From contig CM022675.1 of assembly GCA_012295275.1 (NCBI GenBank), positions 2,971,536 to 3,035,535 of the forward strand: a DNA stretch of 64,000 nucleotides, read 5' to 3'. This document shows, one piece after another, positions 10,581 through 56,124 of this stretch. Below the pieces are notes generated by a model. It was given only the letters and a program-made list of their open reading frames with translations, was not told the origin of the DNA and searched no databases. The position numbers were made by a program, and so were the translations under genes. Position 1 is the first letter of the stretch. The number at the start of each line of letters is the position of its first letter. This DNA comes from Chrysomallon squamiferum (Eukaryota > Mollusca > Gastropoda > Neomphalida > Peltospiridae).

Positions 10581-10905
10581 CTGTTGTTTTGTAACTGTTG
10601 CTATGACAGCTCACACTGTTGTTTTGTAACTGTTGCTATGACAGCTCACACTCTGTTGTTTTGTAACTGTTGCTATGACAGCTCACACTCTGTTGTTTTG
10701 TAACTGTTGCTATGACAGCTCACACTGTTGTTTTGTAACTGTTATTATGACAGCTCACACTGTTGTTTTGTAACTGTTGCTATGACAGCTCACACTCTGT
10801 TGTTTTGTAACTGTCGCTATGACAGCTCACACTGTTGTTTTGTAACTGTTGCTATGACAGCTCACACTCTGTTGTTTTGTAACTGTTACTATGACAGCTC
10901 ACACT
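10581..10905. repeat. 35-37-bp minisatellite, nine copies, at the 3' end of frizzled
   Basis: Nine tandem copies of CTCACACTGTTGTTTTGTAA followed by CTGTTGCTATGACAG, some with a two-base CT insertion. The last unit runs into the frizzled reading frame: the TGA stop (minus strand, 10899-10901) and the codons just before it lie at the edge of the array. Confidence 0.9.
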
Positions 10906-12512
10906 CGAGTCTGCGGTGTTTGTGGGATGAAAAAGCGAATCCACGTGCGGGCTGTCTTTTCATTCAGCAGCCACAAACTGGATGCAGCGCCACCTGCGAG
11001 AGACATGATGATCTGCAACACGTAGATCTCCACTGCTGGAATAGACCGGTCCAAGGAACAGTCGTAATAACTAACACAAGGTTTGTCCATAGCCTGGGCT
11101 GTCCACTCGCCGAAGTTAATCATTTCATACCACAGACATCCGATAACACATACAGCAGCAGTAACATATACTGCGGTAAAAATGCCCATTTTGGTCATCA
11201 ACACTTCCAATTTTTTAATATATAATCCGTCCTCTTTTAAAATAATTTTAGCGCGAAATAAAGAAACAAATCCTGACAGAATGAGTCCAGTACCGACAAC
11301 AACGAACAAGATTTGAGGTGTTAAAACGAACACAGTCTCAGCTGTGACGTCATCAACTGACACTTGACATAGTCCTGTAAGTTCATTGCCCTCAACTCTT
11401 CTCATTGTCACTATGGTGATGGTCATAACTGCAGGAATGATCCAGGAAGCTAGGTGGAAATAACCACTGCAAGACTTTATTGCTTCTTGTCCCCATTTCT
11501 TGTTTGCTGACAAAAACCAACACAGTGTCAGGATGACCCACCAGATGGAAGTTGCCATCCTGAAATAGTACAGTAAAATAAACAGTATGTTACAGCGCGT
11601 GCTCTCGATCCCTGCCTGAATGAGAAACATACGACCATCCGGTCTGGTACCGCACGATACTCTATCCGCTCCTTTTATTATACTGACCACGACAGCCATA
11701 GAATACACAGCATAACACATCGCCATAAATATAACTGGTCTTTGGGGGTATTTGAATCTTGAGTTATCCATAACCAAGGTGAGTACAGTAAGCGTAGAAC
11801 AAACACAACACACGACTGCCCAGGTCACCATACACAGCCGGAAATACACTTTATCTGACTGACTGAAATACACGTCGACGTCACAACGAGGCGCACACGA
11901 TTTATTTGCTTGAAGGTGACTTATGTGAACGAACCTGGCTGGACAGATGTCGTTGTGCTGGGTGTCAGACGTCTCAGATGTTGATTTTATCAAAGTCTCG
12001 AAGTCTTTTTTCATCTCTGGATCCATGAGACTATTGTTCACTTGTTGAGTTATATTGGGCGGCTCTATACACAGAGTGCTAGAGACATTTCCAGACTCTG
12101 GCAGCTTCTCGCACGATAAAGGATCCGGCCAGGAAAAGTGAAATTTGTTGAGAATGGGTTCACACTTTGACTTTACCTCGAGACACAGAGAACGACAAGG
12201 CGAAATGGTAAACGTCACTTCGTCAAATTCAGTACACATCGGAACATACACTGAGCACAGGAAAAACTTCAATAATGGTGAACATCCAAACTGAACAAGA
12301 GGAAAAAATAGTTGTACCTGAAGATCTGCTTCATACAAACTCCTGTCTCCAACCAGATTGGGCATTCGAGTCATGTTGTACCCTACGTCCGAGCACGTGG
12401 ATTTCGTAATAGGCTCGCACTTGACATTGTGTTCGAACGACGTGGAACACACAGCTGACGGCGACGACGTCCATAGCACAAAGATTAAAACGAGCAGAAC
12501 TGACCCCGGCAT
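10899..12512 (-). CDS. Frizzled-4-like Wnt receptor, intronless
   Basis: A 537-residue seven-pass receptor read without introns. After a signal peptide (about residues 1-22, hydrophobic LLVLIFVLW) comes the Cys-rich Wnt-binding domain (about 30-150), with CEPITKSTC, GYNMTRMPNLVG, PLVQFGCS and FLCSVYVPMC. Its MPNLVG and CSVYVPMCTE stretches resemble Frizzled-4 more than other classes. Seven membrane segments follow from about residue 225 (VYFRLCMVTWAVVCCV onward) to about 515. The essential Dishevelled-binding motif KTxxxW is present as KTARTW directly after TM7. The tail is very short and ends QTRV, which fits a class I PDZ ligand (T at -2, V at 0). The role inferred from the family is Wnt or related-ligand signalling through Dishevelled at the plasma membrane. 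The ATG at 12510-12512 is supported by the following signal peptide. Subclass assignment is less certain than family. Confidence 0.93.
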   Translation of the reverse strand: MPGSVLLVLIFVLWTSSPSAVCSTSFEHNVKCEPITKSTCSDVGYNMTRMPNLVGDRSLYEADLQVQLFFPLVQFGCSPLLKFFLCSVYVPMCTEFDEVTFTISPCRSLCLEVKSKCEPILNKFHFSWPDPLSCEKLPESGNVSSTLCIEPPNITQQVNNSLMDPEMKKDFETLIKSTSETSDTQHNDICPARFVHISHLQANKSCAPRCDVDVYFSQSDKVYFRLCMVTWAVVCCVCSTLTVLTLVMDNSRFKYPQRPVIFMAMCYAVYSMAVVVSIIKGADRVSCGTRPDGRMFLIQAGIESTRCNILFILLYYFRMATSIWWVILTLCWFLSANKKWGQEAIKSCSGYFHLASWIIPAVMTITIVTMRRVEGNELTGLCQVSVDDVTAETVFVLTPQILFVVVGTGLILSGFVSLFRAKIILKEDGLYIKKLEVLMTKMGIFTAVYVTAAVCVIGCLWYEMINFGEWTAQAMDKPCVSYYDCSLDRSIPAVEIYVLQIIMSLAGGAASSLWLLNEKTARTWIRFFIPQTPQTRV

Positions 12513-13380
12513 CTTACCCGCGTCTCATTTTTTACTTCTTATAATAATCGTATCCGTACAAACAAACTGCGATTCGAACGTTTCAGACTAATGTAAACAA
12601 TTATGTATTCATCCGCCGTATGCATTCTAATAATTATTCCCTTCAGAGCTTCGTAAAAAAAAAAAAAAAAATCTTTCCTAACACACAACACACATATGCG
12701 CACAAGCACACACACACACATATAAAAGAATATTAGAAATGTTCAAATCTTTGTCCGTTCTTGGTGCGGAGATATTTCTGGTGAAACGTTAACAGGTTTG
12801 TATTATAATTTTCTCTGTGATTTATTAATTTAAAAACAAAAAACTCTAATTTAAAAAAAAAAAAATTAATTACATATTTATTTAATATTTTCGATTATCA
12901 TTTTCAATTAGGTATAATATTTGAGTGTTAATGTTCTTCAATGTGTTTGCAGCGGCTTTTTATTTTTTAATAAACTAATTTTGTTGATGTTTTTGTTTTC
13001 ATTATTAGAGGTTTGATGTCTGGCTTTTGCTTATATATGTATAAACAGCTGAGTGTAAATACAATAATTATTATATAAAACTTAATATATAAATGAAATG
13101 AGTAATGATATTAAAAATACAAAATTTAATAAAATACATAAACAACAACAACAACAACAACAAGTAGTAGTATCATCATAAAAAAAATACCAGACAACAA
13201 CAACAACAAACAAAAAAATAATAATATAATGCAATTAATTTTCTTTTTAGTTTTAATTATGGGTATTATTTTTATTTTTAGATAGAAAATGACTTTATGT
13301 TCATAAATAAGGAAATTACAGATTGAAATACACTGGTAACAAATACTGATAATAAATATTAACTACTGCAGCTACCACAT
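12513..13380. other. Upstream flank of frizzled, AT-rich
   Basis: This would contain the frizzled promoter. No TATA box or other site can be assigned. It has a poly-A run near 12656-12671, a short (CA)n near 12709-12720 and a (CAA)n run near 13140-13162. No exon is visible. Confidence 0.5.
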
Positions 13381-17399: not shown

Positions 17400-17970
17400 A
17401 ATATATATAATATATGCACATGCAGATTATAGGTACATGTACAATAAACATATAATATAATATAACATATACACATGAAAGATAATAGATACATATACAA
17501 ACATATACAATAAACATACACATAATATAATATATGCACATGCAGATTATAGATACATATACAAACATATACAATAAACATACACATAATATAATATATG
17601 CACACACAGATAATAGATACATATACAAACATATACAATAAACATACACATAATATAATATATGCACACGCAGATTATAGATACATATACAAACATATAC
17701 AATAAACATACACATAATATAATATATGCACATGCAGATTATAGATACATATACAAACCGTGTATGCACACGCAGATTATAGATACATACAAACGTGCAA
17801 TAATAAACATGCACATGCAGATTATAGATACATATACAAACATGTACAATAAACACACGCAGATTATAGATACATATACAAACGTACAATAAACATACAC
17901 ATATGCACATGCAGATTATAGATACATATACAAACATATATATGCACACATAATATATGCACATTATAGA
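17400..17970. repeat. About 64-bp minisatellite beside the assembly gap
   Basis: About nine units built on ATATGCACATGCAGATTATA then GATACATATACAAACATATA then CAATAAACATACACATAATA. Later units are shorter. The array ends about 30 bases before the gap and is a plausible reason for it. The long minus-strand open frames are translated repeat. Confidence 0.9.
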
Positions 17971-18002
17971 TAAGCAATACGTAACTGAACGAAGCATACC
18001 AA

Positions 18003-18202
18003 NNNNNNNNNNNNNNNNNNNNNNNNNNNNNNNNNNNNNNNNNNNNNNNNNNNNNNNNNNNNNNNNNNNNNNNNNNNNNNNNNNNNNNNNNNNNNNNNNN
18101 NNNNNNNNNNNNNNNNNNNNNNNNNNNNNNNNNNNNNNNNNNNNNNNNNNNNNNNNNNNNNNNNNNNNNNNNNNNNNNNNNNNNNNNNNNNNNNNNNNNN
18201 NN
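18003..18202. other. Assembly gap (200 N)
   Basis: Exactly 200 unknown bases, which is probably a placeholder length. Its right edge falls two bases short of the splice acceptor expected for the last (cytoplasmic) exon of receptor gene A. See the findings. Confidence 1.
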
Positions 18203-18323
18203 GCAATAAGAAATAAACTGCCTGAGAGTTAGAAAAATATATATAAATTTTTAATATTTTTTTAAAATGATGATTATATTATTATTATTGTTATTATTAT
18301 TCTATTATTGTTACTATTACTAC

Positions 18324-18358
<35 letters not shown>

Positions 18359-18717
18359 TTAGTACTACTACTACTACTACTATTATTATTATTTCTTTGT
18401 TTCTTTGGTGTTTCTTTTTTATATATAATATCTATACATTAAGTAATTTTAACAATTGAAACATTATTATATTAATACAAAAACGTATCTCATGTCGTCA
18501 GTCAAGAACGGTAACTCTATTTACCTTTTCATATAAACAAGAGCGACAACTGTGCACACTACTAAAAGTATAATGACAGCTACAGAAACACCAACAGCAA
18601 CGTCTGTAAAAATATAAATTTATAAACTACAACAACAAAAATTAAAATAAATATTATCCATTAGCAACAAATGTTTGCTAACGTACATGTTTCCAATGAA
18701 AATACGAATACATACTC

Positions 18718-18759
<42 letters not shown>

Positions 18760-20929
18760 TGTGTGTGTGTGTGTGCTGACAAAGGAGAGTGTGTGTATAC
18801 ATAAACATTTGTCATTTTAACCATATATACAGATAAATCTTTTGATCTGGAAACATTTTTGGTCATCACTCGAATTCGGCATATTATCATCAGAATATTT
18901 TATCAGCTCAATAAATATATTTCAACAACAATGAAACAACAGTCCATAATTGCTTCACAAATCGTCCAAAAACAACACAAACAAAAAACCTATCTATGTA
19001 TCTATAAGGTGTATCTATATGTATTTATGTATATCTCTTTCTATCTATCCATCTATCTGTCTTATCTATCTCTCTTTCTTGATTTCTGTATGTCTGCTAT
19101 TACTGCTACTCCTACTATAAAAAATGCATCAGTTCTGCTATTATTAATTTCAGTATGATAATAAATAATATCTAATATTTTATTCTTGTGTTAGAATTCT
19201 TTGTTAACGACAAATACGTACACACGTTATTTTATACATGTTACGGTATTTCATTTAATATTTGGTTTCTTAAGTTTCAAAAGTTATTTATTTGGGTGTT
19301 TGTGAAATTACTCTAACAATGGTTTAATCATAAATATCAATTATGATTTTAAACAAATTATTAATTAAGTATTTATGAAGGGAAATAATTGTTTTACTTA
19401 TTACAGAAATAAACGCTGTTGTCTCCCTTCCAGAGTTTTCAGATGCAGACGACTCGAAAACAGTTTTATCTTCTCTTGAAGTTGTTATTTCAGAGGAACT
19501 TGGAATTAACAAATTTGAATGAGATAAAGCCGTATATTTCAACTTATTTAGAAAATGTTTAGATCATAACTGGAATATGCCATTTTATTATTACAGATTA
19601 TAACTGCTTTAAAAACAGTCCAAAAAAAATAAATAAATAGAAAGAAAAAAATGAAAGAAAGAACAGCAATCAAAAACGAAAAGCACCATATCTGTATATC
19701 TATAACTGTATCTATATATTTGTATGGAAGTATGTATGTATCCATAAGTCTATGCGTATGTCTGTCTGTCAGTCGATCTCTTTTTAATAATTTCATAAAA
19801 TAGAATTATCCAAAGATTAAAAAGAGATTAGTATTAATACCTGGACTTGGAAGGTTAGATGTTCGAAACCTGGAATCTATAAAATATAAAATATAAAATT
19901 ATGTTTTTAAAAATTATTTTTATTGACAGTATTAAAATATCTGTCAGTCTAAGTTTACTATCATACACTGACCATACTGTTGTTAACGAATGCCATTATT
20001 TGTATAACTACTGCACCTAAACTTCCTCAGTGCACAATGGGCTATTGCTTGTTTCATCCAGCGCTTCATAAATTATTTAGTATAAGTGTGAATAAACTTC
20101 TGTCAGTAAGATTGAGCATAGTTTCTAACTGAATACCAAATATAGCCATTTATTTATAATTCTGGAGAAAATACATATACATACATATATTAATATCCAG
20201 TAGATGATGACAAACAAGTAATCGGTTTGTTCAGATATACAAAAGAGGTTTATAGGCTCAGATGTTCAAAGAATCACTAGTTATGAATAAAATAATAAAT
20301 GAATAAATGAATAAATAAATAATACTTACTAATAATACAAATGGCGGAATGGTGGGTACTGCAGTTACTGATTAAAAATGAAATTTAGCCACTTGAGGAT
20401 TTTTCTAACAACACGCAGCCATTTTGTTTGATGTTTATATTCAGCGTTTTATCTTCTAAAATTGAAATAATATAATCAAAAGAAGAAGAAGATCAAACTA
20501 ACAAACACAACCTAGTAAAAATAATGTTTCTCTTCGTCTTAACTTGAACAAAATAACTCACTGAAATGACTGTCAGTCCAGACTATTAGTTTATCACGTT
20601 TTAATCCAATCCAGTATTTTGTATTATACCATAAAAGTCGTCTTACTATTTCAGCGTTATTTCTGTTTAGTTTTGCTAACACACAGCTTGAATTAGATGA
20701 AAACCAGCTCTTAGTCATGTGATGATTGTAACATGAGTTCCTAGAATAGTCTCCTGTACCTGAGGAAAAAAACAAAGAAAAAATATTTAAATTATTGTAC
20801 ATAGCAACATGGTGTTTTAAATGAAACGATGCTAATCGAACACAAGAATATGTGTTAAACTATGTAATTTATGAAATAATTTTTAACAGTTTTAGGTGAT
20901 ATTTTGTTTTAGAATTGTATATATTATTA

Positions 20930-22643: not shown

Positions 22644-23049
22644 AAAAAAAGTAAAAAACATGTTATAATATTGTTCTTAATTAATCAGGTCAGTTTCACT
22701 ATATTATAAGTGAAAATATTCAAAATGTAAAACGTATATAAACTATTCAAATATGAACGCTTTAAAACTGGCTTTGAATGTGTATAAGGGATTATGTGTC
22801 TAAACTGCATATTAAAATGGTTAACTCACAGTTACAAATAAATCCTTTTTTTGTTTCACAGTCCTCTTCTGTTTTGATTATTAATTTGGATGAATCTTGT
22901 TTAACAAATCCACATATACCGTGAATACCCAAATCGACAGTTATATCTGTAAAAAATGGAACAAAAAAACAACAACAAACAATTAATTATATACATAATA
23001 ATAACAGTGGAATATTAGTAATGATAGAAATAGTTATATTACAGTTAGT

Positions 23050-23195: not shown

Positions 23196-25687
23196 AAAAG
23201 CTGTAGAATATAATTATAACTGATATAACAAAAAGCATTGAGGCACACAGAAAGATGTTACTAATCCTAGGATCATCCTTCTTATAGTTTCATTAAATGT
23301 TCTTAGAGTTAAATTTAGCAAGAATTTTCTAATTTTACATAGCTCTTCTTTCTTTCGTTTTTTATTTTTTTCAAAGATAAATAAAATATATATTTTTTTA
23401 AATATAGATTTTATGAAAGTAAACAAATGAACATAAAAACTAATTATAGCCGTTACGTTCAGATAAATATTGTTTTTGTTACCTGTTTGATGGTTGTTAA
23501 AAATCTCAGATTCTGTAACATGAGTACCTACAACAATAGCAATAAAAATAGCAGCAACAATAATAACATTAACAATAATAATAACAATAAAACAATATTG
23601 ATAGTAATAATAATAGGAAAAAAAAAATGATAATAAGAACAATAAAAAAAAAGTTGTAATAGTACTAGTAATGATAATTATAATTATCATGAATATGGTA
23701 ATAACAATAATGACAATGATGATAATAATAATAACACTGATAACAAAATAATGATAACAACAACACTGCTAATAATTGTAGCTTATTTTGTTACCACCAT
23801 CATTTCTGATCTCTAATTTACGAGGTAAATGTGGATGTTTAGTATATTAATGAGAAAATTGAAGTAAAACGTTACCTATTTCATAAATACTCATTGTGTT
23901 TTCAGTCCCGCAGTTTTCTTTGAAGTTTCCAAGACAACCAGTTTTATTTTGTCTTTTAACAAATTCCAATGGAAGCTGAAGCCAGTCTATCAAGTTAAAA
24001 CAGTAACACTTCTCTCTCTGCAATTCAAACATTTAAAATAATAAATAAATGTCTGTGTATAAATGTACATGTACATCTATGCATGTATATGCAGATGTGT
24101 TTAAGCTTGCCTGTTTGCATGCATGTGTATATGTGTGTGTGCATTTTTCTGTGTCTTTGCGTATGTATTATTTACTTAATCTGTGTTACTAACCTGTAAT
24201 CCAACATATCTTAAACTTGAAGTAGTTTTCTGTTGTTTACATTCGTAGTAACATCGGCTTGCCTGGTTGTCGTATTTGATTTGATAAAACTGTAAAGATT
24301 TTAATTCATTCACTTCTCCAACGTAATCAAACAGTGGTGTGTTATCCGCTGTAAAACAAACTTTATTTGTTTAATAAAATCAGTTTTACAACATAAGCAA
24401 TCATTTTGCGTATAAAATATAGTCTGAATCAAACACGCACACACGCACACAGACACATATTATTAGCTTGACGTTCAATAACTATACTAATAACAAAGAA
24501 AACAACAGCATCTACTACTACTACAATATTGATAATAATAATAATAATAATAATCATAATAATAATAACAACAACAACATCACAATAATAATAATAATAA
24601 TAATAATAAAACCGCAGTTTTTATTTAACAAAAGCAATGTAAAATTAACATAAAAAGGAAGAGAGAAAAACCACAACACAACAGCCGCAAAAAAGACAAC
24701 ACAACAAAGAAAAACAAATTATATGCATTATTTTTTTGTGAAAAAAAGATTTAATTGTCGTTAGCACATTAATTTTTTTTATCTTAATTATCTGTGTCAG
24801 TTAGATATTGCTGTTGTGATCTATTTTACATCACGTGACAAAAGAATGGAGAAAAAATACTGAAGCTCATGTTTAGTAAAATCTGTTGTTTAATTTTCCT
24901 ATTCTGTATGTAACGACAGTAAATGCACTGTATTAAACAATATTAACAAGTACACATATATGGATATTTTTATAATAAATGTACCAATATACTTGCTCAT
25001 ATTAAACAATAATATAAATTTAATGCAGACGAATATTTACAGTCGCCATAACTTTTGATCTGAGTATTCCTTTACATTTTTTTTATCGTAACTGCTCATT
25101 TAAACAACTTAATAATTGATATCACCTGTCCACTTCCAGGAACTGTACTGAACTTTAGCTCCAATCCAGTAAGATCCAACTGTGACGTCACTCAGTGATG
25201 TAATATCTGACGTACTGTAGAGTTGTTCTCCATGTTGATGACATGTATAAAACGCTGTATCCCATGTGACATTATTTAATATAAGCAGAGTAGCTGTAAT
25301 GAAACGGAATATATTTACTTTTAAAACAAACTATAAAATTAAAATCTCTCTCTCTCTTTGAAACTTGTGCTTTTTACGGTCAGATATCTAAATATAAATT
25401 ATATTAATATTAATAATGAATAATTGAAAGACGTTCGTAAATTATTAAAATTATTATACTTTTTAAAAGATTATTTTCCATCTTTAAATTATAAACATTG
25501 GAAAATAAAAACTAATTTCTTTCACGTGTAATTAAAATATTTTACCTGACACAGAAAACAGCTGACATAAAATCCCGCAGAAAATTGTCAGATGCAGACG
25601 ACTTGTACTCCATACTTCAGCCATGACACCCTGTTAACTGTACAAAGAATTGAAAGATTGATCGGTTTTTACAATCACCCGTTTTTC

Positions 25688-28824: not shown

Positions 28825-29111
28825 ATGGCTGAACTATGGATTACAAACCGTCTGCTTCTTACAATTTTCGTCTGGATTTTATTTCAGCTGTTTTCTACGT
28901 CAGGTAAATATTTTAATTACAAATTTAAAGTTGAATTTTATTTTTATTTGCCTGTTTTTGTGATTACAGTTTTGTGAAGGAAAATAATATTTTAGAAAGT
29001 AGTGAGACGTCCAGGTTATTTTTAATAATTTATGAATGTTTTGCAAGTATATTATTATTAATTATAAATATAATTTATATTTAGACCTCGAACCCTCAAA
29101 ATCACTTGTTT

Positions 29112-29209
<98 letters not shown>

Positions 29210-31240
29210 TTTGAAAGTAAATATATTCCGTTTTATTACAGCTACTCTGCATATATTAAATAATGTCACATGGGATACAGCATTTTATACATATCATCAA
29301 CAAGGAGAACAACTGTGCAGTACGTCAGATATTATTTCACTGAGTGACGTCACAGCTGGATCTTACTGGATTGGAGCTAAAGTTCAGTACAGTTCGTGGA
29401 TTTGGACAGGTGAAATAAGCATTTATTAGTTAACTGAACAGTTACGATCACAAAACAAAAAGGAATACTTCCTACTGTAAAGAGATGAATAGCATCTAGT
29501 TACGTGGTGTAAAATGTGACATAATAAGAATATCTAATTAACATAGACAGCTAATTAAGATAAAAATAATGTGTTTACGACAATTATTTTTTAACACAAA
29601 TAAAGTGCATGTAAGGGAGTGTCCAAGTATGTATCTGTGTTAAACAAATCAAGTTTGTTTTATAGCGGATAACACACCACTGTTTGGTTACATTGGAGAA
29701 GTGGATGAATCACAATCTGAACAGTTTTATCAAATCAAATATGACAACCAGGCAAGCCGGTGTTACTATGAATGTCAACAGCACAAAACTACTGCAGATG
29801 TAAATTACATTGGATTACAGGTTAGTATCATAAAAGACACAGAGCCATGTAGACACAAACATGCAAATATATACACACACACATATATATAGACAGAGAA
29901 AAAAATAGGTAGGTATACATGCACCAGATGTAGACATATATTTATACAATAATACAGACAATCAGCAAAAAACTAAAAAAAAAAAAAAAAAAAAAACTAT
30001 TTGTTACTGCTACAATAACACAGTTATATTATTGTTTGTGACTAATATGTTACCCTGATTGGAATGGGAAATAGATTCAGTCGGTGTGAAACTGGTAAGA
30101 AAGTATCTTTATTTTAATACTTGTTATGTTTATAATTTTAAATGTTTGTATTACAGAGAGAGAAATGTTACTGTTTTAACCTGAGATATCAAATTTCACG
30201 TGGATTTGTTGAAAGAGAAAATAAAACTCGTTGTCTGGGGAACTTCAAAGAAAACTGTGGCACTGAAAGTACTATAAGTATTTTTAAAACAGGTAAAATC
30301 TTATGTATCTCTCTTCCTCTATTGAAATTATCTCCTTATCGGATGTTATCGGGAATCTTCAATTTTTATTTATTTATTTTATTTTATTTTATTTTATTTA
30401 TTTTCAGATATAGCAATCAGTAATGTTGAATGGTCACTGAGTGTTGATGGTGTGTGTGGCTACATTGATCAACCTAGTTTAATTTACGTGAAAACAGATA
30501 AAAACTGTAACACACAGAGGGGATTTGTCTGTGACTGTGAGTGAATCTTTCTTTAATGCCTTTACAGAATTAATATTTTTGTATGTTATAACGTTTCTCT
30601 GGATTTTTAAAATATTTTTTGCTGTTGCTGTTTGTTTGTTGTTCTCTATTTTTCTTTTTCTTTTTTCTTTAGTTCGTAGAGCTTTTCTTTTTTTCATGTT
30701 GTTTTTTATTTCTTTATTTCTTTTTTTTTTTTTTTTTTATTTAATTAAATTAATTTTCTGTAATGGACTATCAAAGAATTTACTGCAAACACCAATTTAC
30801 AAAGATAATTAGTTCATATATATATATGAACTAATTATCTTTGTAAATTGGTGTTTGCAGTAAAAAAAAATTATATACTGTTCATTTTTACTCTAGGTAA
30901 GTTACCTTTTTATTATTGTTTATTACAGGTAGTGGAAACTACAGCAATACTTCATGTTATCATCATGACAAGACTCACAGCTGGTTTTCATCTAACTCAA
31001 CTTGTTCATTAACAAAACTAAATAAAAACAATGCTGAACCAATTAGAAGGAAAATGAGGGGTGGAGTACAGTACTGGATTGGACTAAAACGTTACAAACA
31101 AATAGTTTGTTTTGACAGTTTTTGCAGTGAGTTATTGTAAAACTGATTAACTTTTAAATCAAAAACTTGTGTTAATTTTTATTTATGTTTTCCTTTTTTC
31201 AGTCTTTCATCAATTTTGTTTAGTCTGATTTATCGATTTA

Positions 31241-31294
<54 letters not shown>

Positions 31295-33304
31295 CATTAT
31301 TATTATTATTTATATATTTATTATTATTATTTTTTTTTTGTTGATATTTCTGATAATAATAATAACAGTAGCAGTAGTAGTAATAGTAGTAGTGGTACTG
31401 GTGTTTTTTTTTCACATAATTATTCTAAACAAACTTAAATAATACTCGTTTCAATTCTTTAATTAAATAAAATGATTATTTTATTTCAGATGAAACACTC
31501 AATATAAACATTACACAAAACGGCTGTGTCATGTTACAAAAATCCTCAAACGGCAAAATTTCATTTTCAATTAGTAACTGCAGTATGCACCACCCCGCCA
31601 TTTGTATTAATAGTAAGTATTATTTATTTATTTATTTATACACAGATATTTGTGCTGTATTTTAATCATTACTAAAACGAACGATTCAATGGATACCATA
31701 AATAATATAAAATATGCAACTGCATCCAGTTGTTAGCGCTAACCACTGAGTCTTTGAAAATCTGAACCTACAATCTTCTTTTCTTTTTCTGAACACACCG
31801 ATTAACTTTTTTATCACCACCTACTGGATATTAAACTTTATATTATATTATATTATATTAAATATCTTCAAAGGTTTTCAGCTACGGTATTCGTCGATGA
31901 ACCTATTGATCTTTTATTTGCTTCTTATTACAAACAGAAGTTTATTCACACTGAAGTTGATAAATAATTTATGAAGCACTGGATGAAACAAGCAATAGCC
32001 CATTGTGCACTGACAGTTACATAAATAATAGTAATCGTTAGAGACAGTATGGTCAGTGTATGGTAGTAAATTTACGTTCACATTTATTTTAATATTGTCC
32101 ATAAAATTATTTTCAAAAATATAGTTACATATTTTATATATTACAGATTCGAATTTTGGAGCATGTAACAATTCAAATCCAGGTATTAATACTAATGTAC
32201 TTTTACTAAACTAACAAGTGTATTTTAGTTATTAATATTAATTTACTTTAATGAATGTGTTTGCATAAAAACTGCATAAGAAACATATATTTTATTTACC
32301 TTTGTATAAAAACAAAATTATTATTATTTTTAAATTGCAAATCCTTGCTGTGAAATTTACCTATATAATACTAACCTTAACCGAAACTGATTTAAAGCAA
32401 TTATATTATTAACAGAATAGTCAACTCATTATTTATAATTATTTAAATTGTCACCATATTTATTCTTTTATATATATTTTTCTTATTTATTTATTTATGT
32501 AGGTGTTGCTGTGGGTGTTTCTGTTACTCTAATTCTACTCGTAGTTGGAGCTGTTGTTGTGACAGTTTGGATGAAAAGGTAAACATAAAAATACTTCTAT
32601 TTTATACTTTTCAAGCTTATTTAAAAAATCGTTTATTTTTATTTTAATTTTTTAATTTTTTTAGATCACATAAATTTTGTTTCAAGACTAAACCAGAAAG
32701 CAGCATGACTAGACGAACCAGATCTGTGAATCAGCAAAACTTGTCAGATTACGATGAGATCAAACCAGGAACTGATTCAAATTACGAGTTTGAAACTCTA
32801 ACAGATGTTACCATGGCAACCAAACCAAAGTCTAGTGACTATGAACTGGCGGCTGATGTGAATGCAGCGAATGTTCAGACAACCAACAACTACAACAACA
32901 TCAGTGATGATGACTACATCGTCCTAGATGAAAGCAATCCAGTTAAATCAAGTTCTGATGTCTACAGTCAGGTAAACAAGATAAAGAAGAACAAAACATC
33001 TGGGCTACACATCGTTGACAATCAGAACGACAACCACACTGACATCACCGTTGAAGGTGATTATGATACAGCTGACTCAAAACCAAAGTCCATGTCTACT
33101 CATGACAAAACATACAACCACATCGGAGACGTCATGGAAGGTGAATACGATACAACAGCACCAAAGTCGACATCTTCTCATGATGAGACATACAACCACA
33201 TCGCTGCTGTGACTGAAGATGACTACAACACCGCTGACATGGATCTGAAAAAAGCTGACTACACCAGTGATGATTACAGCCACCTTGATTCTGTGAGAGG
33301 TTGA
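28825..33304 (+). CDS. Receptor gene B: intact CTLD/WSC/CTLD membrane receptor with tyrosine-rich tail
   Basis: Ten exons sum to 1740 nt (579 residues plus stop): 28825-28903 signal peptide (MAELWITNRLLLTIF); 29242-29409 CTLD1 first half ([15 protein letters not shown]); 29666-29820 and 30157-30292 WSC-like module ([22 protein letters not shown]); 30408-30536 CTLD1 second half (CGYI, RGFVCD); 30929-31126 CTLD2 first half (TCSLTK, YWIGLKR); 31490-31612 CTLD2 second half (NCSMHHPAICI); 32147-32182 stalk; 32503-32578 TM (GVAVGVSVTLILLVVG); 32665-33304 tail. Every junction is GT-AG and in phase. The tail has 13 tyrosines, including YDEI, YIVL, YSQV, two YNHI and YSHL, in repeats of about 30 residues. 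These fit SH2-docking YxxI/L/V sites, so an immune-type signalling receptor is likely; ligand and partners are unknown. Differences from its paralogs are Cys to Tyr in FYTYHQQ, with a new Cys eight residues on, and Trp to Cys after YWIGLKRYKQIV. Confidence 0.88.
29117..29204. repeat. (GA)n microsatellite in gene B intron 1
   Basis: About 44 GA dinucleotides, 37 bases before the CTLD1 acceptor. Paralogs carry GA/CT runs at the matching position. Confidence 0.95.
30779..30864. repeat. Perfect 86-bp palindrome in gene B intron
   Basis: Arms of 43 bases pair without mismatch around a TATATA centre. The left arm begins TTTACTGCAAACACCAATTT and the right arm ends with its exact complement. It lies between the CTLD1 and CTLD2 exons. 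It may be the remnant of a foldback element or a replication product. Confidence 0.93.
31236..31335. repeat. (TTA)n microsatellite in gene B intron
   Basis: ATT/TTA triplet array with few interruptions between the two CTLD2 exons. Confidence 0.9.
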
Positions 33305-42666: not shown

Positions 42667-43735
42667 ATGGCTGATCTATGGGGTACAAGTCGTCTGCTTC
42701 TTACAACTTTTGGCCTGATTTTCTCTCAACTGTTCTCTGCATCAGGTAAAATATTTATCTTTTCTTATTGCATGTAATTAAATAGCTTTTATAAAGTCAT
42801 CAAATTTATTTATAGATGAAATAAAATTATATTACATAAACATGTACCTACCTACCTACCTACCTACCTACATACATATACCATTATCTGAATTTAAAAC
42901 CTATTTTATTTTTTTTATTTTTTTTACACCTAACTAAATAGCTTTAATAAGAAAGAGAGAGAGAATGTTTGTTTTATAAGTAAATATATTTCATTACAGC
43001 TACTCTGCGTGTATTAAATGATGTCACATGGGATAAAGCGTTTTATACATGTCATCAACATGGAGAACAGCTGTACAATGCATCAGATATTACATCACTG
43101 AGTGATGTCACAGCTGGATCTTACTGGATTGGAGCTAAAGTTCAGTACAGTTCATGGATGTGGACAGGTGAAATAAATTATTAATTTGTTTTACTGTGCA
43201 GTTAAGATCACAAAACCTAAAGAAATACAGATGAAAAGTTATGATTAATGTGAATATTCATTATATTAAATTTATATTACTGTTTAATATGAACAAGGTA
43301 ATTTGCTTATTTACCAAATATAATTAATGCATTTAGTATTTTGTATTTATTAATGTTATATCCTGTAAAATGAAAAACAATATGTGTGTATGTGTGTATA
43401 TGTATCAGTGCATGTGTCTGCATATGTGTGTGTGGATGTTGGCATGTTTGTGTGTGTCAGACTAATTTAATAAACAAAGTTATTCCTTATATTTTAACTT
43501 TTAAGTTTGTTTTACAGCGGATAACACACCACTGTTTGATTACGTTGGAGAAGTGAATGAATCACAGTCTGAACTGTTTTATCAAATCAAATATGACATA
43601 CAGGCAAGCCGATGTTACTACGAATGTAGAACAAATAAAACTTATGCACATGATGTACTATGTGTTGGTTTGCAGGTTAGTAACATAAATTAAATACACA
43701 CTCACCCCCTACCCCTCACACACATCCTCACACAC

Positions 43736-43834
<99 letters not shown>

Positions 43835-46800
43835 TATATACTAATATAAATATACTTCGATGTACTTTATGTTGGATTGCAGGTTGGTGACATGAATTAA
43901 ATAAATATTTAATGCACACTCGCAGCCTGAACAGTATTTTGAAATGGAAAATAAAGAAGAAAAAAGAAAAGAATACTGGTAAATTACAAATATAGCTTGT
44001 TTCATTTATCAAAATGAGAAGTTTTAAAGAAAAACGAACTCAACATTTGAACAAGATTTATTAATAAACATATTTTTTTAAGAAGTCTATGTTTACTAAA
44101 ACTTAATTTTCTGTCTTTTTTATATAGTAAATTCTGGAGTTTTCATGTTTCCATTAGAAGAGTATCGCTCACACAGTATTCTAGTTTCATAATTATTTCA
44201 AGTTCAACATGTTCTTTCTTTTCATATTATTTTATCTAGTAAACACATATGTTAAATATAGTAAATGAAAATACATACCTTGTGACAGCTATTTTCCACC
44301 TTTTAAAATGGGATAGTTGCCTGATCACTTTCTGAAGGTAAAGTGTTACAAACAAAAGCCGATTAATTTAAAACATTTAATCCATTTCAAAAAGTCAGAC
44401 ACATAAATACATACATACATACTATGATTCCAAAAATGTTGTGTATTTTATCATATGCAGTTTATGTTATTAAAAAAAAAAAAAAAAAATTCATCATCAT
44501 TATTTTTGTTATTGTAAATGTTTGTATTACAGAGAGCAAAATGTTACTGTTTTAACTGGAGAAGTTTATATCAGATTTCACGTGGATCTGTTCAAACAGA
44601 AAATAAAACTGGTTGTTTGGGAAACTTCAAAGAAAACTGTGGGACTGAAAATACAATAAGTGTTTATAAAACAGGTAACATTTTATTCATGTATTACTGC
44701 TGCCATTACTGCAGCTACCACTGCTACTAATATTACTATTATTACTTTATTACTACTATTACTATTGTTATTAGTATTACTATAACTACTTCTACTACTA
44801 CTATTACTCTGATCCTGTTACTACTATCACTTCTATTACACATATTATTACTATTGTTATCGCTTTTTTTATTAATGATACTACTCCTATTATCTACATA
44901 TATTACTACCACTATTACAACCGTTTGCTACTACTGCTACTATTTCTAATACTGACACTACTATTACTACTGTTACTTCTAACTATTACACATATTACTA
45001 CTACTGTTGTTATTACTCCTCCTATTATATACCTTTACTATGTAGAATTACTAAGAGTTATAACTGTTTGTGTTTCCATCACTACTGTTATTCCTACTGT
45101 TACTATTATTATCAGTAAAATAAAATACTACAACAAGTACTAGTGAAAATTACTACTATTATAATTGTTTGTGCTTCTGTTACTACTATTGGGTCATTCT
45201 GTGTCAAATCACCCCCCAAAAAAAGAAATTTAAACCCGACCGTCTCAGATTTTTATAAAACTTGGTATACTTGTTGACTGGGATCCCTCAGCACCAAATC
45301 TGGAATTTTAGCTCAATCAGACCAGTGGTGTGGGACATACGGCCCACCGAATTTTGAGATTTTTGCCAAAAATGGGTGTGACCACCAACCTTAGAACCCT
45401 TATATCTCATGAACTACTGGGCCAATCTTCATAAAATTGGTATTGTTAGAAAGACAAAACGACAAGGATTCCAAATCTGCCATTTTTGTTTAGTTTGGAA
45501 AATATTGGAGTACCTTGACCTTTTGACCTTTGCTATGACCTTGAAATTGACCATGTGGATTGCGTGATCTTGAGATGACCTTTATTGAAATTTAATCTCC
45601 CACATGTTAACTAAAACATATAAAAGTTTCCTGGGTGTAATATTTTTTGTTTAGCCACAATATAGATTTAAAAAATGCACATACATGAAAATAACACCTT
45701 TTCAGCCATTAACATCTGATTAGCTAAAACCTGAATGATCAATTCTGGATGCTAGGGATCACCATCTTTCTTGATCATCGAGTAAAACATTGTAGGCCTA
45801 CATGTATGCATAAAGTTCACATATAAAAGTTTCCTGGGTATATTTTTTGTTTAGCCATAATAGAGATTTAAAAAAACGCATACCTGCATGGATTATTTGT
45901 TATCCTTGTCATTTTGCCTTTCTAACAATACCAATTTTATGAAGATTGGCCCAGTAGTTCCTGAGATATGAGGGTTCTAAGGTTGGTGGTCACACCCATT
46001 TTTGCAAAAATCGCAAAATTTGGTGGGCCATATCTCCCACACCACAGGTCTGATTGAGCTAAAATTTCAGATTTGGTGCTGTGGGATCGCAGTCAACAAG
46101 TATACCAAGTTTCATAAAAATCTGAGACGGTCGGGTTTAAACCATTGGGTGATTTGACACGGAATGACCCTATTACTATTATTATCAGTAAAATAAAATA
46201 ATACAAGTACTGCTACTACTGTACTAGTGAAAATTACTAGTACTGTAATTCTCTGCTTTTATTACTACTATTATTACTATTACTACTATTAAATCTGTGC
46301 TTCTATTACTACTATTATTCCTACTATTAGTATTATTATCAGTAAAATAAATACTACAAAAAGTACTAGTGAAAATTACTACTATTAAAACTGTTTGTGC
46401 TTCTATTACTACTATTATTTCTACTATTACTATCATCAGTAAAATAAAATACTACAAGTAGTACTGTCATTTACATTGTACATTACTACTATTAAAACTT
46501 TTTGTGCTTCTATTACTACTATTATTCTTACTATTACTATTATTATCTGTAAAATAAAATACTACAAGAAATACTGTTACTAGTAAAAATTACTACTATT
46601 ATTACTCTCTGTGCTTCTTTTACTAGTTATTCCTACTATTAGTAGTATTATATGTAAAAGAAAAAACTACAAGTACTGCCATGTACAGTGATTACTACTA
46701 CTATAACTCTTTATGCTTCTGTTACTTCTGTTTCTATTACTATATCAGCTACTGTCATTACAACAACAACTACTACTACTACTAATAATAATAATAGCAA

Positions 46801-47137
46801 TTTTTTGTATAGGTTTTATTACAGATCTGGATATTCAAGATCTCTGTGGATATGCTTATTCTGACACATACCGACCGATTGTGAAAAGTGATGATTGTTA
46901 CACAAAGAAGAGATTTATTTGTAACTGTTAGTTTGTAAGTCCATTGTGTTATAAAATATGAAATACGTAAACATGTTCACACATTTTATTCTTCTTTAAC
47001 AGTTTCTCTACTATGTACTTTGTCTTCAGCTTAAAGAAAAATCATAAAGAAAATTGGAAACAAGTGAAAACTAATGAAAAGAAACTGACAGAAAAATTAT
47101 GTTTTTATTAGTTTTTCTTACAAGAATGACAGATGAC

Positions 47138-50318: not shown

Positions 50319-50982
50319 AAGGCTGTAGAGTTCGCCTTCTTCTCCTTGGAAAATTTGGATGTTAGCAAACATTTGTTATTAATGGGTAATACTTGATTTT
50401 ATTTTTGTTGTATTTCATACATTTATATTTTTGCAGGTGTCGCTGTTGCTGTTTCTGTAACTGTTGTTATAGTGTTAGTAGTGTGCACAGTTGTCGCTGT
50501 TGTTTATATGAAAAGGTAAATAGAGTTACCATTCTTGACTGATGATGTAAGATAAGTTTTTGTATTTATGTAATAATGTTTCATTTCTTAAAATTATTTA
50601 ATATACACAGATTTAAAAAAAAATAGAAAAACAAGAAAAGAAATAATAATAATAATAAAATAAACATCATCATCATCATCATTGTCATTATGTTTTTAAT
50701 TGCAAATTTCATGTTAATTGATTGCTATTTCTTAAAAATTATTAAAAATTTATATTTTGTTTTCACAGTTTATTTCTTATTGCAGGAAAAATATTTTTTG
50801 CTTTCAACAAAAGTCAGCAGACATCATTCACAACAACAGTAACAGAAACTGAGAACAGTGCAATCAGTGACTCAAATTATGAGCGACTCAACATAACTCA
50901 AAGTTCTCAAAATGAGTACATGAACGTGTCATGTGAAACAGAACATGTTTACTGTGTAATGGGCTCAAACGCTGAAGATTAA
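42667..50982 (+). CDS. Receptor gene D: CTLD/WSC/CTLD receptor with three-exon stalk and short tail (frame problem in tail)
   Basis: Exons: 42667-42745 signal peptide ([16 protein letters not shown]); 43000-43167 CTLD1 first half ([24 protein letters not shown]); 43518-43675 and 44533-44674 WSC-like module; 46825-46926 CTLD1 second half (LCGYAY, KKRFICN; an alternative acceptor 12 nt upstream is in frame); 47245-47445 CTLD2 first half ([22 protein letters not shown]); 47903-48028 CTLD2 second half ([17 protein letters not shown]); phase-1 stalk exons 49043-49093, 49409-49459 and 50085-50144, rich in Thr/Ser/Gln; 50437-50515 TM ([18 protein letters not shown]); 50786-50982 tail. All cysteines are kept. 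As spliced, the tail stops at TGA 50850-50852, giving about 427 residues. The other frame of the same exon continues with NYERLN, EYMNV and VYCVM to TAA 50980-50982 and looks like the conserved tail, so an indel near the A5/T6 runs at 50788-50799 is likely. AATAAA follows at 50987-50992. Confidence 0.82.
43741..43838. repeat. (TA)n microsatellite in gene D intron
   Basis: Nearly pure TA with ACATA interruptions, directly upstream of a duplicated WSC exon end. Confidence 0.9.
43855..43881 (+). pseudogene. Duplicated 3' end of a WSC part-1 exon in gene D intron
   Basis: GATGTACTTTATGTTGGATT GCAG followed by the donor GTTGGTGACATGAATTAAAT matches the end of the gene E WSC part-1 exon and its intron (DVLYVGLQ), and is closer to E than to D's own exon at 43675. 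The intron sequence after it also aligns with the E intron. It has no acceptor and should be skipped. Confidence 0.75.
44700..45180. repeat. Degenerate (ACT/ATT)n tract in gene D intron
   Basis: Imperfect ACT/CTA/ATT triplets. Similar tracts lie in the matching introns of A and E. The tract continues on the far side of the inverted-repeat element, from about 46171 to 46800. Confidence 0.85.
45191..46170. mobile_element. 980-bp DNA element with about 270-290-bp terminal inverted repeats
   Basis: The left end GGGTCATTCTGTGTCAAATC is the near-complement of the right end GATTTGACACGGAATGACCC. Similarity continues inward for about 270-290 bases (45191 to about 45480 against about 45901 to 46170), through GGGTTTAAACC-like, CAACAAGTATACCAAGTTT, TGGTGGTCACACCC and TTTCTAACAATACCAATTTT. 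The core contains two direct copies of CATATAAAAGTTTCCTGGGT. There is no open frame of transposase size, so it is non-autonomous. TATT borders both ends, but the flanking triplet repeat makes the target duplication uncertain. It sits in the gene D intron between WSC and CTLD1 exons. Confidence 0.9.
47142..47183. repeat. (CA)n microsatellite in gene D intron
   Basis: About 21 CA dinucleotides upstream of the CTLD2 exon. Confidence 0.95.
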
Positions 50983-51510: not shown

Positions 51511-54500
51511 TCAGCCTCTCACAGAATCAAGGTGGCTGTAATCATCACTGGTGTAGTCAGCTTTTTTCAGACCAGTGTCAGCGATGTTGTAGTTGTCTTT
51601 AGTCACAGCAGCGATGTGGTTGTACGTCTCATCATGAGATGCTGTTGTATCATAATCACCTTCCATGATGTCTCCGATGTGGTTGTATGTTTTGTCATGA
51701 GTAGACATGGACTTTGGCTTTGATTCAGTTGTATCATAATCACCTTCAACGCTGCTGTCGGTGTGGTTGTAGTTGCTAGTCTGATTGTCAACGATGTGTG
51801 GCCCAGATGTTTTGTTCTTCTTCGTCTTGTTTATGTGACTGTAGACATTAGAACTTGATTTAACTTGATTGCTGTCATTTAGGACGTTATAGTCATCATC
51901 GATGTCGTTGTTGTAGCTGTTGTTTATCTGAACATTTCCTGCATTCAGATCAGATGCAAGTTCGTAGTCACTGGAGTTTGGCTTGGTTCCCATGGTAACA
52001 TCTGTTAGAGTTTCAAACTCATAATGTGAATCAGTGTCTGGTTTGATCTCATCGTAATCTGACAAGTTTTGCTGATTCACAGATCTGATTCCTCCAGTCA
52101 TGCTGCTTTCTTGTTTAGTCTTGAAACAAAATTTATGTGAGAGAAGAGAATTTAAAAACAAACAAATTAACCAAGACAAAAAAGACACCAAAAAATAAAT
52201 AAACAAATAGACACACAAACCATCAAATAAAGAAAAATGTAATAAATGAACAAATAAATAAGCAAATTAATAAACAAAGAGAAACAAACATGAAAAGGTA
52301 AGCAAACAATATAACAAAGAAACCAAATAAATAAATAAATAAAAATTAATAAAGTATAACAAACAATAAAAAATGTACTTTGTATAGAAACATTCAAAGC
52401 TTACTTAATCTTTTTTTTAGTAAGCTTGAAAAGTTCAAAATAGAAATGTTTGATTACCTTTTCATCCAAACTATAAGAAGAACAACACCAGCTGCCAGTA
52501 GAATGAGAGTAACAGAAGCACCCACAACAACACCTACATAAATGAATAAATACTTTAATAATATAAACTTTGATATAAATATAATGTAAATAAATATTTT
52601 TTTCAATCAAAATATAAATAAATTAACCTGCTGACAGAATTTCAGTAACTATACGTAATCTATGGACTGTTTTGTTAATAACAATGTAATTATCTTGTAT
52701 TAGTTTTGGTTAAGGTTTGTATTACATAATTGATTTTCAAAAATTTCATGACATTTCTTTCTTTTTATTATTATTATTATTTTTTTCTAAGATTACTAAA
52801 ATATATTTGTATTTGTTTCTTATTCAGTTTTTAGTCAAGTATATTCATTCAAGTAAATATGGATTAATAACTAAAATACACATGTTAGTTTCATGCAAAC
52901 TTTGTTTTTATCTTACTCGTTTGGTCTTTTCCATCTTCGTTAAGAATCTGAGATTTTGTAACAGCAGCACCTGCAACAATAACAACAAAAACAATTATAC
53001 AACAACAACAACAACAACAATCACAAGACTATTACAGTTACAATAACAATAATATAAACAAGAACAATACAATGACAACAACAGTATTAACAACAACGAA
53101 AACAAGAACAAAAATAAAAATAATAATAATAATAATAACAACAACAACATTAACAACATCAAAACAAATATTACTAGTGGTAGTAGAATGATAATTATAA
53201 TGATGATGATGGTAAAAATAATAATAATAATATTAATGATTATAGTAATAAAAAATAATAATGATAATAAGAACAAGAACAATAGCAGTACTACTACTAA
53301 TATAAATTCTATGATAAAAACAAGCAATAGAGAATTTCTTTTACTAGTACTATAACAACAACAGCAATACTACTACTACTACGAATACAAGAACTATAGT
53401 TATAAAAATAACTTCAACAGTTCTGCTATTATTAATTTTAATACAATAATAAATAATATCTAAATATTATATTATTTTGTTACAATTCTGTTACCACCCA
53501 ATATGTATACACGTTATTTTAAAAACATTCATTTAATTTTCTGTTGGTTAGGTTTCAAAAGTTATTTATTTGTGTATTTGTGAAATTACACTAACAAAGG
53601 TTTAATCGTAAATATCAATAATGAATTTAAAGAAATTATTAATTACGTATCTATGAAGGGAAATGATTATTTTACTTGGTATGGAAGTGAACGGAGTTGT
53701 CTCCCTTTCAGACTTTTCTGATGCAGACGACTTGTGATGTGTTTTATCTTCTCTTGAAGTTGTTATTTCAGGGGAACTAGGAACTAACAAATAAGAATGA
53801 GTAAAGTCAAATGTTTTAACTACGTTTTAAGAAATATGACCTACAATTTCTGAACAGATTTTGATCTGAATATAATCAAAGGCAGATTTCTTAGTTTATC
53901 TGTTATTTGGTAATGTTAGAAAAAATAGGGAAACATTTTAGATAATCATTCGAAAATGCCATTTTATAATCAGAATATTTTATCCTTTCAGTACTGAATG
54001 AACCTAGAAGTACAAAACTGGTTTACAAAGAAGTATTAGTTTCAAATCGACAATAAGAAAAAGACAAAAAAACTTAGCACTTTTTATTTGAAGTAAAATT
54101 CCCAATAGCTAAGAAAAAAAACCCTGTCTATATGTGTAATATGTATTAATATGTATATCTCTATATCCATTCATCGTGCACTTTTATAAATTTTTTGATA
54201 CAGAATTATCCAAAGACTAAGAATACATTATTATTATGTAGTGGATTTGTTTTATATGTTTCAAAGGTTAGATGTTCGAAAATTGGAATCTAGAATATAC
54301 AATATAATTAACTATATATTTTTAGTAATTATAACTGTCAACGTAAATTTGCTATCATAGATGATCATACTGTCGTCAATGACTTTCTGTACTTGTATAA
54401 CTAATAACTGATTTGCCAGTTGGTTATTGTCTTTTTCAGCAAGATGTCCATAAACAGTCAAGTAAGTGGCAAAATCCCTTAGTTGTAGACAAATAATATA

Positions 54501-56124
54501 CCGAGATCCACTGGGGACCACATACACACACACACATAACATAAAAAGCGCCCTGAGCTCTAACGTTAAAGTTTGGACTAGTTGGAGTTCGGCCCATGTA
54601 ACTGTTTAGAATATAAATATTTTAATAATTTATATGAGTAAATAATAAAAAAGGAAAAAGAAAAATGTAACTTTTACAAATAATATGAGCTTATTGTAAG
54701 GCAATAGGGTATACAGTATTCTGGCTTTTTCCATTAACAATAAGAATAAATCAATTCATTCCATTTCCATCTCGTGAACATCCATAAGAGAAACATTTTT
54801 ATAGATTTCCAGTATTTTTAAAGACGTAAATATACTATTTATTTTCTGTTTCAAAGGATAAAATAATACTAGAAAAGGTTACTGTTTTTCTTATTGTTCT
54901 TGATGACATTCTTTTTGCATACATACACATACAATAAAATAAAAGATAAATACATAGTACTTACTATTAAGACAAACAGCGGAGTGATGGGTACTACAGT
55001 ACTAACTGAAAATGAGAAGCTGCCGTTTGGAAATTTTTGTAACAATAAACAGCCATTTTGTGTTTCCTTTATATTAACTATCGCATTCTCTGAAATTAAA
55101 ATAATTGTTTTATTTAATGCAAGAAATTGTATACATTTCAAAATGTGAAGAAAAAATTAAACACACACACACAAACACAGATAATAGAGAAAGAGATAGA
55201 GATATAAAGAGTTGAGATTCTAAAAATGACAAACAGCATTCCTACCAAAACGAAGCAATGACTATAACCAAAAATCAACATTAATAATGCAAAACCGTGA
55301 TTATATTGATATTCAAAAAAAAAAATTCTTGCGTGCATAATACACGTAATGTTTGTATGGCGTAGGAAAACGCTCAACACTATGTTTGTTTGTTAGCCCT
55401 AGGGTTTTTCTACTTCATTTTTAATACCACCAATCTTAAGTTTGGTCAAAAGGTCATAATACTCTCCATTTTAACTATAACGTTGTGCATTTGTGCAAAA
55501 CAAAAATACAACAAAAAGAATCTGTATTTAGTATCTTTATAATTAAAGAACGATGACAAGTAAATAAACAGAAAATAATAAACCAAATCTAATAAATAAA
55601 TAAAAGAAATGAAACTACAACAACAACAACTAATAATAATAAGAAGAACAACTACACCAAAACTAAAATAAATGTTCTTATTCAAAAAAATGCAGAAAAA
55701 ATACAAAGCAGTTCAGAAAAACCACTAGTTGCAACACACAAACACACACACACACACACACCCGCACACACATACACACAAACACACACACACAAACACA
55801 AAGAAAAAAGAACGAAACAAAAGAAAAATAACTACAACAAAAGATACTGTAAAAAAACTAACTGAAGTAATCGTCAGTCGAAACTACTTGTTTGTCACGT
55901 TTTAATCCAATCCAGTACTGTTTTCCATTAGCCCACAAGTTTCGTCTAATTGTTTCAGTGTTATTTGTGTTTGGTTTTGCTAAAACACAGCTTGAATTAG
56001 ATGAAAACCAACTCTTAGTCATCTGATGTTTGTAACATGATTTATTAGAATACTGTCCTGGACCTAGGAAAAAAAGACAAAAAGAAACATGTAATAAATG
56101 TATTTATATATATAAATATATACA

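Follow-up and report, generated by a model that had tools for sequence, protein, structure and literature searches.

Whether one protein domain can be housed within another is the question raised by gene B, which lies on a 64,000-nucleotide stretch of Chrysomallon squamiferum DNA (contig CM022675.1, positions 2,971,536 to 3,035,535), referred to below as the window. The original prediction held that in genes A, B, D and E the first C-type lectin domain (CTLD1) is split and that a WSC-like unit lies between its halves, and the same exon order is indeed found in all four genes. Profile scores with controls, exon phases, the regularity of the copies and a second species, all of them readings of sequence, support the nesting of the WSC-like unit in CTLD1. 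The genes quite probably encode single-pass surface receptors with a signal peptide, a CTLD1 in which a WSC-like domain stands in for the long loop, a second CTLD (CTLD2), a transmembrane segment and a tyrosine-rich tail. This receptor family appears to be lineage-restricted and tandemly expanded.

Gene B (28825-33304, + strand) is predicted by a splice model to consist of ten exons separated by GT-AG introns, which together form a single open frame of 579 residues. The gene as a whole fills the interval given in the original prediction; the CTLD1 and WSC part takes up only 29242-30536. Exon 1 (28825-28903) provides the start codon and the predicted signal peptide, and a homologous exon is present in other copies. 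Exon 2 (29242-29409), placed by the splice model and profile scores, encodes the N-terminal half of CTLD1 and ends in phase 1. The WSC-like unit is divided between exon 3 (29666-29820; YIGE and SRCYYEC motifs), which runs from phase 1 to phase 0, and exon 4 (30157-30292; CYCF and a hypervariable stretch), which runs from phase 0 back to phase 1. The two form a symmetric phase 1-1 pair, and its excision therefore leaves the frame intact. Exon 5 (30408-30536) starts in phase 1 and encodes the C-terminal half of CTLD1 with the motifs DGVCGYI, KNC and FVCD. CTLD2 follows on exon 6 (30929-31126; N-terminal half, ending in phase 1) and exon 7 (31490-31612; C-terminal half, starting in phase 1). The remaining exons encode a short stalk (exon 8, 32147-32182, from the splice model), a transmembrane segment of the VWMK type (exon 9, 32503-32578) and a cytoplasmic tail of about 212 residues with the stop codon (exon 10, 32665-33304). 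The tail is rich in tyrosine motifs, namely YNHI twice, YSQV and YSHL. This anatomy is regarded as very likely for the receptors of the cluster.

The exon order of gene B recurs in a larger assembled stretch of 263,465 bases, composed of the window and L031-L050. There, 25 matches to exon 3 were found, 24 of them directly after exon 2; exon 4 follows in all 25 and exon 5 in 24. Exon 2 is borne by 24 copies, and in 23 of these exons 2-5 follow one another in order. A regularity of this kind, kept up across 25 copies, can hardly be due to chance. The expected AG/GT ends are present in 21 of the 23 ordered copies, and 20 of these are also open through exons 2-5. An example of an intact copy is copy 25, which occupies 220937-227960 of the 263 kb and lies past the end of the window.

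Comparison of hidden Markov model scores with and without the WSC part bears out the split, as Lectin_C is seen once the insert is taken out but not in the intact stretch. Against Pfam, full-length B matched neither Lectin_C nor WSC; its pieces matched Lectin_C at E 0.034 (exons 2 and 5 joined) and WSC at E 9e-4 (exons 3 and 4). The insert-free CTLD1 matched Lectin_C in all 17 copies tested, with a best E of 1.5e-5. The curated Pfam cut-offs are 22.6 bits for Lectin_C (PF00059) and 27.8 bits for WSC (PF01822). In member 1, for which the coverage is known, the collapsed sequence aligns with positions 2-105 of the 107 of the profile and scores 21.1 bits, under the cut-off. As controls, the intact stretch of member 1 gave no Lectin_C and a WSC score of 24.6 bits, exon 2 alone reached 14.3 bits, exon 5 alone gave no Lectin_C, and the two halves in reversed order scored 16.3 bits, contributed by the exon-2 half alone. 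When the joined CTLD1 alignment was used as a profile against the PDB, 16 sequences were returned at E ≤ 10, 15 of which are C-type-lectin-fold proteins by name, the other being ATG16.

Of the four cysteines expected to form the two conserved disulfide pairs of a CTLD, the three of the C-terminal half are invariant in 17 of 17 aligned copies, and the first canonical cysteine of CTLD1 is kept in 16 of these 17, gene B being the exception. The CTLD2 of gene B alone has no Lectin_C match in Pfam, and across the cluster copies CTLD2 is matched in five of eight (best E 1.3e-5). When CTLD1 and CTLD2 were compared by hhalign with shallow profiles, the probability was only 22.5%, although the C halves lined up. 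The calcium and sugar motifs EPN, QPD and WND, which are needed for canonical sugar binding and not for the fold, are absent from the CTLD1 alignment as read by eye; classic sugar binding by CTLD1 is thus unlikely.

The same domain order was also sought in other proteomes. A search with the ectodomain alignment among 5.77 billion sequences retrieved four proteins, each of which belongs to the vent snail Gigantopelta aegis. Three of these predicted proteins, P0001, P0002 and P0003, show the first half of CTLD1, the WSC-like part and the second half of CTLD1 in succession, which extends the expected architecture to a second species; P0004 ends after the WSC part. No species other than G. aegis was recovered in this search, which scored only candidates of limited length that had short words in common with the query (1263 and 5483 of them), and relatives elsewhere may for this reason be missed. 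A single-sequence protein search with gene B yielded no relatives. In P0001, the Lectin_C match rises from 19.7 bits over profile positions 3-66 in the intact protein to 26.2 bits over 3-106 in the collapsed one, above the cut-off. When the deletion of 97 residues was shifted forward along P0001, the scores were 26.2, 27.3, 27.1 and 22.6 bits at 0, +5, +10 and +20; shifts backward by 5, 10, 20 and 40 residues gave 20.9, 21.8, 17.9 and no match, respectively. These scores imply that the border is correct to within about ten residues. P0003 has a WSC score of 27.7 bits, under the 27.8-bit cut-off, and is annotated with PF01822.25 in a precomputed database. C-type lectins are reported to be more numerous in Gigantopelta than in Chrysomallon, and the accessible part of that source makes no mention of a nested architecture (PMC7895826).

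The identity of the insert rests on its profile scores and on its cysteines. Exons 3 and 4 matched WSC in seven of 18 copies, the best at E 3.7e-6 and 27.5 bits over positions 18-81 of 82. In a PDB search with the insert profile, the top chain was yeast Wsc1 (E 0.0064), and the next ones were unrelated at E 0.12 or above. Six of the eight WSC cysteines had been thought to be kept, and this holds for all 20 clean copies, in which Cys1 (YxGE instead) and Cys6 are absent and the other six are present. The Cys6 position is occupied by Asn in 20 of 20, an N-glycosylation sequon starts there in 19, and in three of these copies one or two additional cysteines occur at other positions of the insert. 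At 11 held-out loci that lie outside the assembled stretch, none of ten exon-3 matches has a cysteine at C1 (nine have YxGE), and none of nine exon-4 matches has one at C6 (seven have Asn and two Lys). According to the accessible parts of PMC9024836 and PMC5014086, the disulfides of Wsc1 and Kremen1 are C1-C6, C2-C4, C3-C5 and C7-C8, the first of which connects the long L5 loop with strand 1. The two cysteines missing from the insert therefore correspond to one disulfide pair of the known structures, and the loss of precisely one bonded pair is a pattern that a folded domain would allow. The C7-C8 spacing of 8 and the CG of the CGG motif are also kept, with Thr or Ser instead of Gly at the third position. 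Since the insert falls short of both the eight-cysteine rule and the 27.8-bit cut-off for membership in WSC, it is termed WSC-like.

The insert comes after the WIGL strand and before the strand with the next cysteine, at the site of the CTLD long loop. This loop sits between strands 2 and 3 of the domain. It is described, in the accessible part of PMC7618208, as part of the upper lobe along with its strands 2-4, as following the WIGL strand and as being variable and ligand-binding. The proposal that the WSC unit replaces the ligand-binding loop is thus borne out as far as position is concerned; that it has also taken over ligand binding is a matter of inference. At the protein level, the border is uncertain by up to about ten residues, because the first nine or so residues of exon 3 (ADNTPLFxY, or ADKKSLFEY in P0001) also fit the CTLD profile. 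Judging from the letters, ADNTPLFxY may be the W.W.DG.P..Y turn of the CTLD itself, with the WSC proper beginning right after it. The sheet order of the WSC/PAN fold is given as 1-5-3-4-2 in the available parts of PMC9024836 and PMC5014086, which makes the first and last strands neighbours, so the ends of the insert should lie side by side. Adjacent ends of this kind would suit insertion into a loop.

The different parts of the ectodomain vary to different degrees. The mean ratio of non-synonymous to synonymous substitution rates (dN/dS) is 0.36 for exon 2, 0.58 for the WSC part and 0.43 for exon 5 (20 copies each), and 0.41 for CTLD2 (14 copies). In the first half of the WSC loop L5, the 16 codons after CYC, it is 1.68 with a column bootstrap of 0.90-3.00, an interval that includes 1 for a stretch chosen post hoc from the alignment; as the stretch was picked after its variability was seen, the value is a lead and not proof of positive selection. 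Outside this stretch, the WSC part has a dN/dS of 0.43. Of 249 overlapping segments of sixteen codons along the ectodomain, the 15 with the highest values all lie over the L5 stretch, which is thus its fastest-changing part, and nine held-out loci gave 1.13 in the L5 stretch versus 0.49 after it. Distances among 14 copies are correlated between exon 2 and the WSC part (rho 0.47), between exon 5 and CTLD2 (0.51) and between exons 2 and 5 (0.36); no correlation is seen between the WSC part and CTLD2 (0.07) or between exon 2 and CTLD2 (0.02). This block-wise pattern suggests that the copies are mosaics with no clean single break.

A number of observations weigh against a WSC-like domain nested in CTLD1 and have to be set beside this evidence. 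In gene B itself, the first canonical cysteine of CTLD1 is a Tyr, with a Cys eight residues on. Only one same-fold PDB sequence, an antifreeze protein (2.1e-4), lies below E 0.001 for the joined CTLD1 profile. Two AlphaFold models, each built from an alignment of four sequences, are too poor to use (pLDDT 33.8 and pTM 0.21; pLDDT 39.6 and pTM 0.34), and Foldseek with the latter returned nothing at E ≤ 0.001, a result that is not used as evidence given the poor model. Collapsed P0003 matched no Pfam family, and intact P0001 had no WSC match, both at E ≤ 1. As for the insert, the WSC scores of the cluster stay just under the cut-off and are confined to the seven copies mentioned, yeast Wsc1 lies above E 0.001, and of the 15 places listed when the whole genome was searched with the WSC model, not one is inside the cluster. 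The post hoc choice of the L5 stretch and the recombination among the copies, which weakens the dN/dS estimates, belong here too. Finally, stops or frame breaks damage exon 7 of A, exon 7 of E, exon 2 of F and copies 7, 8, 20, 23 and 24.

Some of these points can be taken to mean that exons 2 and 5 do not belong to a single CTLD and that separate cysteine-rich segments, whose joined likeness to Lectin_C is coincidental, flank a WSC-like domain. The modest score of member 1, 1.5 bits short of the cut-off, the unmatched P0003 and the unusable models would fit such an arrangement. However, Lectin_C is matched by every one of the 17 collapsed copies, joining the exons gains about 7 bits over exon 2 alone, most of which are lost on reversal, and P0001 passes the curated cut-off only without the WSC part. 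The 15 lectin-fold names among the 16 PDB sequences point the same way, with the reservation that only one is below E 0.001. A coincidental likeness is accordingly considered very improbable. The insert could instead be a PAN/Apple-type or other cysteine module whose WSC likeness is limited to the shared PAN-like core. The C1-C6 bond, which is gone, is described together with C7-C8 as specific for WSC versus PAN in the accessible part of PMC9024836; the CG[TS] in place of CGG and the scores just below the WSC cut-off also fit a PAN-type module. Yet the C7-C8 spacing and the CLGN..CG context are kept, and C7-C8 is the other bond described there as WSC-specific. In addition, no PAN was among the 12 Pfam families listed, WSC was matched at up to 3.7e-6, and Wsc1 was the top PDB chain, which makes a PAN identity unlikely.

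Other explanations accept the exons and question what the nested form amounts to. The WSC pair might be a cassette that is often skipped, with an ordinary two-CTLD receptor as the main product and the nested form as a minor or regulated isoform. Skipping both exons of the symmetric pair would hold the frame, and CTLD1 matches Lectin_C without them. Such a cassette is rather improbable, given that P0001-P0003, which are gene predictions, carry the WSC part between the halves, that the WSC exons are mostly constrained outside the L5 stretch, and that they are retained in 23 of the 24 exon-2-bearing copies. The stops and frame breaks listed above might also indicate that the array is for the most part a repeat-like cluster in decay, in which few genes are functional and the nesting would have little biological meaning. 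The 20 of 23 copies that are open with the expected splice ends, the mean dN/dS of 0.36-0.58 by exon and the conservation of the design in G. aegis speak against decay, and it appears quite unlikely.

If the WSC-like unit is nested in CTLD1, its origin can be sought in the exon phases. The CTLD2 intron between exons 6 and 7 is likewise in phase 1 and has the equivalent position, directly behind the WIGL...W.D strand; the ancestor was thus probably a CTLD encoded by two exons with a phase-1 intron between them. Elsewhere in the genome, 150 CTLD matches are listed (of 483 candidates, 150 were scored); the majority start near profile position 37, and in three of them a break near positions 55-61 was seen by eye. 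In the proposed scenario, a WSC 1-1 exon pair would have entered the phase-1 intron of such an ancestral CTLD through exon shuffling, and an origin of this kind is considered probable. The insert would then fold as a WSC/PAN-like module whose neighbouring ends exit the CTLD core at the long-loop site, with CTLD1 serving as a rigid stalk or scaffold that presents it. The variable first half of L5, together with neighbouring loops, might contact a microbial or self ligand; recognition via the WSC loop is put at slightly short of an even chance. The tyrosines of the tail may recruit SH2-domain proteins, and signalling by this route is somewhat favoured.

The other copies of the window repeat the arrangement of gene B. 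Gene A, on the - strand, has exon 2 (CTLD1 N half) at 25127-25291, exons 3 and 4 (first and second WSC-like halves) at 24194-24346 and 23880-24017, and exon 5 (CTLD1 C half) at 22831-22950. In gene D (+ strand), the corresponding exons lie at 43002-43166, 43520-43675, 44533-44673 and 46809-46928, and in gene E (- strand) at 58940-59104, 58083-58226, 57067-57207 and 56402-56524; for exon 5 of both D and E, the coordinates are match ranges and the acceptor is not exact. An extra partial exon 2, at 59434-59532, precedes the complete one of gene E. In-frame stops occur in exon 7 of gene A (20334-20450) and exon 2 of gene F (62463-62627), and the frame changes inside exon 7 of gene E (54966-55078); by these signs, A, E and F may be pseudogenes. 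The transmembrane exons fall into two classes, VYMK in A (18527-18601) and D (50439-50513) and VWMK in B and E. Copies of the VWMK class, B (32503-33304) and E (51514-52531), have the tail of about 212 residues, in which YNHI is repeated. Among those of the VYMK class, D and several other copies have a short tail with SNYERLN, EYMNV and VYCVM; it was not found for A, and a stretch of N in the assembly lies just past the transmembrane exon of A, at about 17900-18250. Tail-to-tail neighbours with one member of each class, reminiscent of paired receptors, were noted by eye in the 263 kb (copies 4/5, 6/7, 13/14, 25/26 and 29/30). The window also contains, at 10899-12524 on the - strand, a single-exon frame of 541 residues whose translation makes it a candidate Frizzled-like receptor.

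Beyond the window, the 404.6 Mb assembly was searched with a 197-residue segment of B, which gave 153 matches; all those listed are on C11 at 2.995-3.575 Mb. The cluster thus spans about 580 kb, with a GC content of 28.7%. Outside the 263 kb, a hand count among the matches listed found 18 further exon-2 matches and eight further complete ordered sets, and the array holds at least about 42 copies. Pairs of matches with identical scores lie hundreds of kilobases apart on C11 (3267614/3524609, 3044933/3533548 and 3220731/3514312), which suggests recent block duplications within the array. Large clusters of ordinary C-type lectin exons and one cluster of WSC domains are present elsewhere in the genome (C3 at 4.7, 11.3-11.6 and 13.0-13.7 Mb; C13 at 19.6-22.5 Mb; C11 at 12.70-12.72 Mb).

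The long loop of the CTLD is a classic site for evolving lectin binding. A whole domain at this site shows how much the scaffold tolerates and how exon phase may have permitted it, and the nesting, if true, represents a new way of building a recognition surface. The array offers dozens of natural variants of one composite, in which the fold, the ligand side and the diversification are directly testable. Should the species be a vent snail with symbionts, as its only recovered relatives suggest, the repertoire would be a candidate for the recognition of symbionts or microbes. Tentatively, and with some doubt, peltospirid-type vent snails may have swapped a CTLD loop for a WSC/PAN-like domain and thereby gained, in an array of about 580 kb with forty or more recombining receptors and a diversifying L5, a germline repertoire able to sort symbionts, pathogens or kin.

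Set against known families, CTLD1 resembles Lectin_C (PF00059) in its W..A...C...G..L and WIG motifs, in the cysteines of its C half and in the end-to-end profile match of member 1 and P0001 once joined; it differs by the domain of about 95 residues at the long-loop site, with which the intact stretch is not recognised by Pfam. The insert resembles WSC (PF01822; yeast Wsc1, Kremen1) in keeping C2-C5 and C7-C8 in order, and differs by lacking the C1-C6 pair and the second Gly of CGG, by scoring 0.1-0.3 bits under the cut-off and by lying inside another domain. Proteins that combine WSC and CTLD are already known. In the PKD1 family (polycystin-1, sea urchin REJ), WSC and C-type lectin domains, both of which are found in hPKD1, are given as separate domains of large membrane proteins, and nesting is not mentioned in the accessible part of PMC1934368. 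The marks of that family named there (REJ, GPS and PLAT domains; 1-11 transmembrane segments) are not those of gene B, which has 579 residues, one transmembrane exon and no REJ, GPS or PLAT in Pfam. Bivalve-specific C-type lectin (CTL) proteins have WSC among their extra domains, and the words "insert" and "nested" are absent from the main text of the source as accessible (PMC10140915). Literature searches for nested, inserted or combined WSC and CTLD, covering mostly titles and abstracts with few subscription papers, likewise showed no such nesting, in agreement with the original claim that no family of this kind was known. Ly49 and other natural killer (NK)-type clusters are similar in being tandem arrays of single-pass CTLD receptors with tyrosine motifs, and the best PDB matches of the CTLD2 profile are Ly49 chains (E 3.5e-5). 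Ly49 receptors are type II, whereas those of the snail cluster are predicted to be type I, with an N-terminal signal peptide and a C-terminal tail.

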